Shown here in pieces: positions 38,691 through 40,891 of a stretch of DNA of 64,000 nt. Under the pieces are notes generated by a model. The model did not search any database, had not been told where the DNA came from, and saw nothing but the letters and a program-made list of their open reading frames with translations. Source of the DNA: Flexibacter flexilis DSM 6793. Its GTDB lineage: Bacteria; Bacteroidota; Bacteroidia; Cytophagales; Flexibacteraceae. Each line of letters starts with the position of its first letter. Within the stretch, counting starts at the first letter, position 1. The position numbers and the translations under genes are program-made. Location of the stretch: contig NZ_FOLE01000008.1 of NCBI RefSeq assembly GCF_900112255.1, positions 62,001 to 126,000 of the forward strand, in the 5' to 3' direction.

Positions 38691-39278
38691 TTACGATTTT
38701 TTGGGCTCAAAATCTTTTTTCCATTGTCTGTAGCCATGTATGGCCAAAAGTAAATAAATGAAAAATAAAATGGCCGTAAGGTGTAGATTTTTGTAGTAAT
38801 AAATACCAATCGAAACGGCATTGACCCCGACCCACAACAACCAATTTTCTACATATCGGCGTGCCAACAGATATTGTCCCACCAAACTAAAGGCCGTTGT
38901 CAGTGCGTCCCAAGCGGGTACGTCGCCGTTGGTGTAGCGGTGCAGTAGCCACCAAATCAGCAGCCAAAGGCCTGCGCCAGAGAGCATTACCCAAAGCCAT
39001 TGTTTTTTGTTAAGAAATTGAATGTCAAGTTTTTGGTGCGTATTTCTGCTTTTGTTTTTCGCCCAACTATACCAGCCGTACACCGAGGTAAGGCCATAAA
39101 AAATTTGCAAACCCGTTTCGGCGTAGAGTTGTCCGTTCCAGCAAATGACCGTGTAGCAAACCACATTGATTAAAGCCACAGGCCAACCCCAAATATTTTG
39201 GCGGGAGTTGAGCCACACGCACAGCGCACCCGTAGCCACGCCGAGCCATTCCAAATAAAATAGCCAATCTGTTGTCAT
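38691..39278 (-). CDS. pnuC: Nicotinamide riboside transporter PnuC
   Basis: A 195-residue membrane protein with about seven helices. WLNSRQNIWGWPVALINVVCYTVICW and FYGLTSVYGWYSW are PnuC landmarks, and the segment QYLLARRYVENWLLWVGVNAVSIGIYYYK completes the core. PnuC imports nicotinamide riboside for NAD synthesis by facilitated diffusion. ATG 39278 opens the mature-looking N-terminus. No thiamine pyrophosphate riboswitch was seen, so the thiamine-type paralog PnuT is less likely but not excluded. Confidence 0.88.
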   Translation of the reverse strand: MTTDWLFYLEWLGVATGALCVWLNSRQNIWGWPVALINVVCYTVICWNGQLYAETGLQIFYGLTSVYGWYSWAKNKSRNTHQKLDIQFLNKKQWLWVMLSGAGLWLLIWWLLHRYTNGDVPAWDALTTAFSLVGQYLLARRYVENWLLWVGVNAVSIGIYYYKNLHLTAILFFIYLLLAIHGYRQWKKDFEPKKS

Positions 39279-39365
39279 GTAAGTTTCGGGGAGGAATATT
39301 TGATAAAAGGGCAAAAAAAAGGTTCTTTCTCGTGAAAAAAAGAACCTTGCTTACAAATATGCTTA

Positions 39366-39950
39366 TTAGGCTTTTGAATGGCCTACAAATTCATCGTAAA
39401 GTTTTTGGGCTTCGATTAAGGTTTTATCCAAATCTTCATTCAATAATATTTTATCAAATTTGTCTTGGAAACTCATCTCAAATTTCACTTTGAACAAGCG
39501 GCGCGAAATGCTTTCTTCCGTGTCTGTGCCGCGTCCACGCAAACGTTTTTCGAGTTCTTCTTCGCTTGGCACTTTCACAAAAACGGCCAAAGCACGTTCT
39601 TGGTAATAGCGTTTCAGGCTCAAACCGCCCTTTACATCCACATCAAAAATTACGTGTTTGCCTTGCGCCCAAATACGCTCAATTTCAGACTTTAATGTTC
39701 CGTAGAACGCGCCTTCATAGACTTGTTCCCATTCTACAAATTCGTCATTATCTATGCGTGCTTTAAATTCTTCGGGCGTGAGGAAGTAGTAATCTTTTCC
39801 GTTTTCCTCGTTGCGGCCACGTTTGTCGCGTGTGCAAGCTGAGATAGAAAACCCTAAATCCGAGTTGTTGGCCAGCAAGTGTTTGACGATAGTTGTTTTG
39901 CCCGAACCTGACGGGGCGCAAAAAATAATGAGTTTACCTTCAAAGGCCAT
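39366..39950 (-). CDS. gmk: Guanylate kinase
   Basis: A 194-residue kinase that phosphorylates GMP to GDP. The P-loop is APSGSGKTT (residues about 12-20), [21 protein letters not shown] binds GMP, and [14 protein letters not shown] is the Walker B-like strand. Length is normal. The RsrA-like anti-sigma protein gene ends 2 bases upstream, so the two are almost certainly co-transcribed. Confidence 0.96.
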
Positions 39951-39952
39951 AC

Positions 39953-40300
39953 TTAAATTTGTGTTTCCTTAATTTTGGACTTAACGCAATCAATAAGGTC
40001 GCAAGGTAATGACTTTTTCTCAAGTTTCTGCATGAGCATCTCTTTGATGGCTGCTTCGAGCTTGTACTCTTTATAACAAGGCATACACTGTTTTGTATGC
40101 TCCAAAAAGGCCTGTTGTTCTTCCTCTGTAGCTTGGCAATCAACGATTTTCTCCAACATTTCCAAGCAGGCGTTGCGTTTTTCTTGAAAAACGGCTTCTT
40201 CTTCTGCACTCATTTCTGAGGTCTTTTCGCTACATGGCTGATTGGTATAATTCTCCTGCGCCAAAATTTGCTTTAAGCGATTAGTAACTTCCTGGTTCAT
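39953..40300 (-). CDS. Soluble zinc anti-sigma-like protein (RsrA/ZAS type)
   Basis: A 115-residue soluble protein. The segment with Cys45 (ACLEMLEKI), His68, Cys72 and Cys75 (HTKQCMPC) matches the Cys...His-x3-Cys-x2-Cys zinc signature of ZAS anti-sigma factors such as RsrA, which release a sigma factor when oxidised. Extra cysteines are at 23, 55, 100 and 105. There is no membrane segment. The fit is good, but no ECF sigma gene is adjacent; gmk follows directly. An anti-sigma role is inferred from the motif. Confidence 0.75.
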
Positions 40301-40498
40301 TGTAATATAAGACTGTTTGTGTATAAAAAAAATTACTCATAGTGTGTGTTATTTCACAAATACAACGAAAACCTTTGTTTTAGTTCATTTTCGGTATTTT
40401 TTTTTTCAAATAAAATGAAATTTTCAGGACTTCAATGTTATTCACTAAAAATTTGTAGCATTGCCAAATAGATTCTGTACAGAAAAACTCTTTATAAG

Positions 40499-40891
40499 AT
40501 GATACGATATGTTTATACGATTTTGTATGTAGAACGCGTGGCTTGTTCGGTGGCTTTTTATCAAAAAGCATTTGGCTTTGATCTGAAATTTATGACTCCA
40601 GACGAGAGTTACGCCGAATTGCTTACGGGTGCTACTACCTTGGCTTTTGCTTCTAAGGAATTGGCTAACAGTAATTTGAAAGAAGGTTTTCAGACTTCGG
40701 ATCTGTCGGCGCATCCGTTTGGAATAGAGCTGGGGTTTGTGGTAGAAGATGTGCCTGCCGCCGTAGAACGCGCCCAAAAAGCAGGTGCAACACTCACGGA
40801 AGCACCCAAACAAAAACCTTGGGGGCAAACGGTGGCCTATCTCCGCGATACCAACGGTTTTCTGATAGAGCTTTGTACGCCAATGGGTTAG
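40499..40891 (+). CDS. VOC-superfamily protein (glyoxalase/bleomycin-resistance fold)
   Basis: A 130-residue protein with the paired beta-alpha-beta-beta-beta modules of the VOC fold. VYTILYVERVACSVAFYQKAFGFDL is the N-terminal module and IELGFVVEDVPAAVERAQKAGA the second, ending DTNGFLIELCTPMG with a metal-ligand type Glu. Such proteins can be isomerases, dioxygenases or drug binders; the activity is not clear. Stands alone, convergent with a glycosyltransferase-like gene. Confidence 0.88.
   Translation: MIRYVYTILYVERVACSVAFYQKAFGFDLKFMTPDESYAELLTGATTLAFASKELANSNLKEGFQTSDLSAHPFGIELGFVVEDVPAAVERAQKAGATLTEAPKQKPWGQTVAYLRDTNGFLIELCTPMG

Follow-up and report, generated by a model that had tools for sequence, protein, structure and literature searches.

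The anti-sigma factors closest to the protein described here are RsrA, the counterpart of SigR in Streptomyces coelicolor, and RshA, the counterpart of SigH in Mycobacterium and Corynebacterium. RsiW, which is membrane-bound, RslA, and ChrR carry the same kind of anti-sigma domain. According to the accessible part of one report (PMC4960319), zinc anti-sigma (ZAS) proteins of the CHCC type have a His-x3-Cys-x2-Cys motif and a fourth ligand, a cysteine that lies 23-26 residues upstream; this N-terminal zinc cysteine is required for redox release, and RsrA contacts its sigma factor through Val54, Leu57, Val75, and Leu79. In the accessible part of a 2020 survey of class I anti-sigma factors (PMC7406223), the anti-sigma factors of group AS12 are all actinobacterial, and the ECF12 sigma factors of Bacteroidetes are stated to have no class I anti-sigma factor in their neighbourhood and to be bound to use orphan ones or another mode.

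The gene studied here lies in the window, which is the whole stretch of DNA that was analysed (64,000 nucleotides from contig NZ_FOLE01000008.1 of Flexibacter flexilis DSM 6793), and encodes a protein of 115 residues (Table 1). The protein contains seven cysteines (Cys23, Cys45, Cys55, Cys72, Cys75, Cys100, and Cys105) and His68, and the pattern that a first-pass annotation had read from the letters, Cys45...His68-x3-Cys72-x2-Cys75 plus four further cysteines, is exact. RsrA and RshA are likewise small anti-sigma factors that have seven cysteines and a zinc pattern of the CHCC type. They differ in that the window protein comes from Bacteroidota and not from Actinobacteria, and its N-terminal part, which contains Cys23, is about 30 residues longer than that of RsrA. 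RsiW, RslA, and ChrR are HHCC proteins in the available portion of PMC4960319, whereas the window protein is of the CHCC type; furthermore, ChrR has a cupin-like domain and RslA, in the text accessible, is membrane-associated, whereas the window protein has no added domain.

Table 1. Positions of the features at the RsrA-like locus, counted from the first nucleotide of the window.
Feature	Positions	Strand	Basis
Predicted RsrA-like anti-sigma gene, 115 aa	39953..40300	minus	ORF with ATG start and intact frame; family and structure searches
gmk, guanylate kinase	39366..39950	minus	TIGR03263; conserved neighbour, 3' of the anti-sigma gene
Terminator-like hairpin and T run 3' of gmk	39319..39348	minus	Consensus scan, near shuffle expectation
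Intergenic gap upstream of the anti-sigma gene, ending at the divergent glyoxalase-family gene	40301..40498	minus	
Glyoxalase-family gene, divergent, upstream neighbour of the anti-sigma gene	40499-40891		

The stop codon of the anti-sigma gene (39953-39955) is separated by 2 bases from the start of gmk at 39950, in agreement with the earlier reading of the junction, and gmk was identified by TIGR03263 (197.6 bits against a cut-off of 160.45). The 2-base gap and the hairpin after gmk (39348-39319, 13 pairs followed by a T run) fit cotranscription of the two predicted genes, and the hairpin is a possible end of a two-gene anti-sigma-gmk unit; the window contained two terminator-like sites where shuffled sequences averaged 1.4, which makes this a weak sign. 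The promoter of the unit should lie in the intergenic gap upstream, and the 220 bases scanned upstream of the anti-sigma gene contained no TAnnTTTG, the promoter box used in the scan. The gene had also been described as having no sigma factor gene beside it, and this was borne out by its glyoxalase-family neighbour and by the distance to the nearest sigma-70 match on the same contig (C8:71123), which is about 31 kb away and scored only 53 bits with the profile of the operon sigma factors described below. A sigma gene overlooked beside the anti-sigma gene was considered and rejected from the open reading frames and a sigma-70 search of the genome.

The window protein matched the RsrA model TIGR03988 at 2.7e-7 (30.6 bits) and did not reach its equivalog cut-off of 62.5 bits. 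As far as the sequence tells, it is thus RsrA-like but not to be filed as RsrA, and this supports the earlier assignment to the RsrA-like zinc anti-sigma factors. The family and structure scans took in 47 of 80 named homologs; TIGR03988 was matched at E≤0.001 in all 48 proteins scanned (these 47 and the window's own), and a single homolog, L006 from the same order, exceeded the cut-off (64.5 vs 62.5 bits). The Pfam family zf-HC2 (PF13490) was matched at E≤0.01 in 32 of 48 homologs; the window protein scored 14.2 bits, under the gathering score of 22.2, with T4_RIIA1 slightly ahead at 0.011. When the window protein alone was searched against the PDB, the best solved structure was that of RsrA (5frf, 0.0024), and a family profile of 30 homologs matched RsrA (5frf/5frh) at 8.9e-11 and RsiW at 4.3e-7, with the next hit at 0.39. 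The AlphaFold model was of middling confidence (pLDDT 73.6, pTM 0.46) and contained four predicted helices (32-53, 59-69, 73-94, and 100-113), as expected of an anti-sigma domain. Its best structure matches were sigma-bound RsiW, MucA, and RslA, which were weak (Foldseek E of 0.57 or worse, Z of at most 5.8) and interspersed with unrelated chains. The profile thus links the family to RsiW, and the predicted structure gives a weak link to RsiW and RslA.

Cys45, His68, Cys72, and Cys75 are the proposed zinc ligands. Cys45 lies 23 residues before His68, within the range given in the accessible text of PMC4960319, and thus the N-terminal cysteine described there is present at the stated distance. 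Six of the 110 homologs aligned were duplicates that shared a contig or an identical C-terminal part with another, and among the 104 distinct ones, Cys72 was conserved in 99, Cys75 in 95, and His68 in 57 (105, 101, and 60 of 110 when duplicates are counted); all three residues were kept in 50 of the 104. The first-pass annotation had tied its reading to conservation of His-Cys-Cys among homologs, which was found for the two cysteines but not for the histidine; in this respect the family differs from RsrA. The Cys72/Cys75 pair was absent from L162, L165, and L169, and L194 (G030), L196 (G045), and L199 (G121) were free of cysteine; all of these seem to have kept the anti-sigma domain without the zinc site. 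Because some homologs have no zinc site and His68 is not general, redox sensing may differ among members of the family. At least two N-terminal cysteines were found in 39 of 50 homologs lacking the histidine vs 18 of 60 bearing it (Fisher 5e-7, with duplicates), or 37 of 47 vs 17 of 57 when duplicates were removed. A zinc-ligand exchange, with loss of the histidine and gain of a second N-terminal cysteine, was considered and is not established, given three independent supported pairs on the sigma tree and a median sign-test p of 1.

The sigma-contact residues of RsrA listed in the accessible part of PMC4960319 correspond to Ile85, Met88, and Val106 of the window protein in a gapless alignment with the RsrA structure, and the fourth, Leu79, to Ile110 through a 4-residue extension of that alignment. 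Ile, Leu, Val, Phe, or Met occupied these four columns in 103, 94, 104, and 104 of the 104 distinct homologs.

Gene order in relatives was counted from both sides. How often the anti-sigma gene adjoins a sigma gene was given by 30 loci having the anti-sigma protein: an ECF sigma gene lay directly upstream in 28, the two exceptions being the window and G001, a genome of the same family, and gmk came next in 24, with one of the other six (L005) stopping at a contig end. How often close sigma orthologs adjoin the anti-sigma gene was given by 80 named loci, picked by their sigma gene as the highest-ranking among at least 549 matches; an anti-sigma homolog was directly downstream in 80 of these best 80, and the unit continued into gmk in 77 and nadD in 72. 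Of the three loci that lack gmk, L136 stops at a contig end. Among these 80 top-ranked loci (of at least 549), median gaps, calculated from the earliest possible start codons, were 13 bases between sigma and anti-sigma, 3 between anti-sigma and gmk, and 3 between gmk and nadD. By NCBI ranks, the 80 comprised 76 Cytophagales, two unranked Bacteroidota, one Bacteroidales, and one Sphingobacteriales, and a few contigs were common to them and the other locus set. The order sigma, anti-sigma, gmk, and usually then nadD is taken as the ancestral unit in most of the Cytophagales examined. In most relatives the anti-sigma gene comes immediately after the sigma gene, which is another likeness to RsrA and RshA, whereas the continuation into gmk and mostly nadD, as well as the unlinking of the window's gene from the sigma gene, is a difference.

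SigR-type promoters have the form GGAAT...GTT. As a sign of autoregulation, such a promoter was sought upstream of the sigma genes by dyad count and inspection of GGAA sites by eye, and none common across genera was found.

In the window's genome, the usual unit has come apart at both ends: contig C3 carries the sigma gene, C4 carries nadD, and the anti-sigma-gmk junction is the sole remnant. This junction was also kept in G001 and G005, the family's two other genomes having the protein. The spot that nadD occupies in relatives holds a gene for a PnuC-like nicotinamide mononucleotide transporter (window 38691-39314, minus strand), which is another NAD-related gene. The gmk linkage, for which the first-pass annotation had proposed a neighbourhood survey, was conserved among homologs. 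Since this linkage is part of the four-gene unit, it can be explained without the alternative that had been offered, a separate redox switch tied to nucleotide metabolism.

The window's genome contained 16 matches to sigma-70 region 2. One of these, C3:36430-36996 (L034), reached 336.8 bits against a profile built from 28 neighbour sigmas, from which L034 was left out, so that the score is independent, and the next sigma of the genome scored 103.4. The best NCBIfam family of L034 was TIGR02947 (SigH_actino; 169.4 bits, the best of 94 families matched, cut-off of 251.55 not reached), which is a further likeness to the actinobacterial pairs, and its best PDB chain was Mycobacterium tuberculosis SigH (7.3e-40). 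Judged from these matches, L034 is a SigR/SigH-like ECF sigma factor and the ortholog of the operon sigmas. Its presence supports the earlier suggestion that the sigma partner is encoded elsewhere in the genome; the term "orphan" holds for the anti-sigma gene by position, with no sigma gene adjoining, but not otherwise, given the orthologous sigma gene on C3. The genome gave a single RsrA-like match at E≤0.01, and the search for a second RsrA-like gene near the C3 sigma found no anti-sigma match among its neighbours. With regard to a possible single relocation behind the splits in G000 and G001, the stretches around their sigma genes (14 and 18 kb) had one homologous gene pair in common besides the sigma gene (31% over 168 residues), at unequal distances from it.

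A second pair of an ECF sigma and an adjacent small zinc (zf-HC2) anti-sigma gene in the same genome (C3:324993-325658; L001:1369-2205) is of the same general kind, but its best families, TIGR02943 and NF052368, differ on both sides. Its sigma factor was rejected as the partner, with both proteins belonging to other families. It is quite unlikely that the window protein now controls one of the 15 other sigma factors of the genome: their number leaves room for such an exchange, yet only one sigma matches the operon-sigma family strongly, and at least one of the others (C3:325464) adjoins a zf-HC2 anti-sigma gene of another family.

Presence and absence were compared across 59 genomes of the order, with thresholds of E≤1e-50 for the sigma and E≤0.01 for the anti-sigma; the sigma alignment (A2) consisted of the own sigma and 21 of the 28 neighbour sigmas, and the survey score of the own genome is thus not independent. 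Both proteins were present in 40 genomes and neither in 17; two genomes (G040 and G042) had the sigma only and none the anti-sigma only. The genes were neighbours in 36 of the 40 genomes having both and, from their coordinates, apart in G000, G001, G030, and G045; the anti-sigma homologs of G030 and G045 are weak (2.4e-10 and 1.4e-9) and cysteine-free, which makes their split status less certain. Three of the 11 genomes of the window's family had both proteins and eight had neither, and these eight of the 17 may stem from a single loss.

The divergence of the anti-sigma relative to its sigma was the third lowest of 104 for the window (also third of 110), and thus gave no sign of relaxed constraint. 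It is very unlikely that the protein is a decaying remnant or a small non-regulatory zinc protein carried along with gmk. Its single-sequence scores are under the curated cut-offs and its ligands vary among relatives; however, the frame is intact, the CHCC set is complete, the contact positions are conserved, the relative divergence is low, and the protein is absent from all eight genomes of the family without the sigma gene.

Across genomes, anti-sigma and sigma distances were correlated (Pearson 0.75). For the window's pair alone, the distance correlation was -0.03, the second lowest of 104, and it was also low in relatives (0.13 in G001 and 0.20 in G005, where the genes are still adjacent). 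A low value is therefore not a mark of the split, because G005 is low as well; nor does the value of the window's pair support its coevolution. Such a value would also fit a protein that dropped its sigma role after the split and became a redox or metal switch of nucleotide metabolism, with gmk or the gmk product as its target. The survival of the anti-sigma-gmk junction here, in G001, and in G005, and the presence of gmk in 77 of the 80 top-ranked among at least 549 loci, would fit as well. Nevertheless, we consider this highly improbable: the sigma ortholog is retained, none of the 59 genomes has the protein without the sigma, the sigma-contact positions are kept, the divergence is not raised, and binding to guanylate kinase was not indicated by any search made.

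These results suggest, with a probability of roughly 0.78, that the 115-residue protein is of the RsrA type and is the anti-sigma factor to a SigR/SigH-like ECF sigma factor, the gene of which is now unlinked on C3, while the anti-sigma gene was left with gmk. The sequence family, the gene order, the orthologous sigma gene, the matched presence and absence, and the conserved contact positions are the computed basis of this reading. Sigma binding, zinc binding, redox release, and the continued pairing of the separated genes would follow by analogy with RsrA. The reduced, zinc-loaded anti-sigma would wrap the sigma factor and deny it access to RNA polymerase; during disulfide stress, a bond would form between Cys45 and either Cys72 or Cys75, zinc would be expelled, and the sigma factor would be freed. 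As the anti-sigma gene lies beside gmk and apart from the sigma gene, its dose should follow the promoter of gmk.

The RsrA-like kind of anti-sigma factor is known, and what is likely to be new is a positional orphan with a likely partner elsewhere in the genome and a link to gmk that is widespread in the order. A literature search at title level, with most subscription journals outside its coverage, found no title naming a sigma/anti-sigma/gmk operon. The Cytophagales pairs may be the anti-sigmas overlooked for the Bacteroidetes ECF12 factors of which the accessible part of PMC7406223 speaks; the sigmas are candidate ECF12 members that stay under the TIGR02947 cut-off, and the anti-sigmas were perhaps missed owing to their often incomplete zinc motif.

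The sigma was matched at 1e-60 in 96 of 148 genomes of the phylum. A closer look covered 25 loci (L198-L222) among the 30 best rows of sigma matches, and an anti-sigma match was found beside the sigma gene in four and in none of the other 21. One of the four, from Cytophagales, had anti-sigma, gmk, and nadD with the sigma; the three further positives, from outside the order, were one cysteine-free protein and a pair of long proteins whose zinc motif is N-terminal. Because 21 of the 24 loci outside the order had no anti-sigma match adjoining the sigma gene within 1.5 kb, the statement in the available text of PMC7406223 may still hold there. The loci without an adjoining match (L200-L216 and L218-L221, families f39 and f41) carry close sigma homologs. 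At L217 and L222, in other families of the phylum, the gene after the SigR-like sigma gene encodes not the short form but a long protein (331 and 272 aa), which has a zinc anti-sigma motif in its N-terminal part and, judged by eye, a hydrophobic stretch.

If the Cytophagales sigmas are the ECF12 factors meant, the question of their control would come down to a simple test of binding. As a natural case, the split pair shows an anti-sigma and a sigma that are retained together although their genes lie apart, the anti-sigma gene being linked to that for guanylate kinase. A wider and rather doubtful proposal is that a SigR-type thiol-stress switch is wired into the gmk-nadD operon of Cytophagales, so that, by way of one shared transcript, disulfide stress would alter how much GDP/GTP and NAD is supplied. 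The anti-sigma would then be an overlooked regulator of SigR-like sigma factors in Bacteroidota, dosed in this genome by gmk expression and apart from its sigma. With the pairs described here, the control of the SigR-like sigma factors of Bacteroidota becomes testable.
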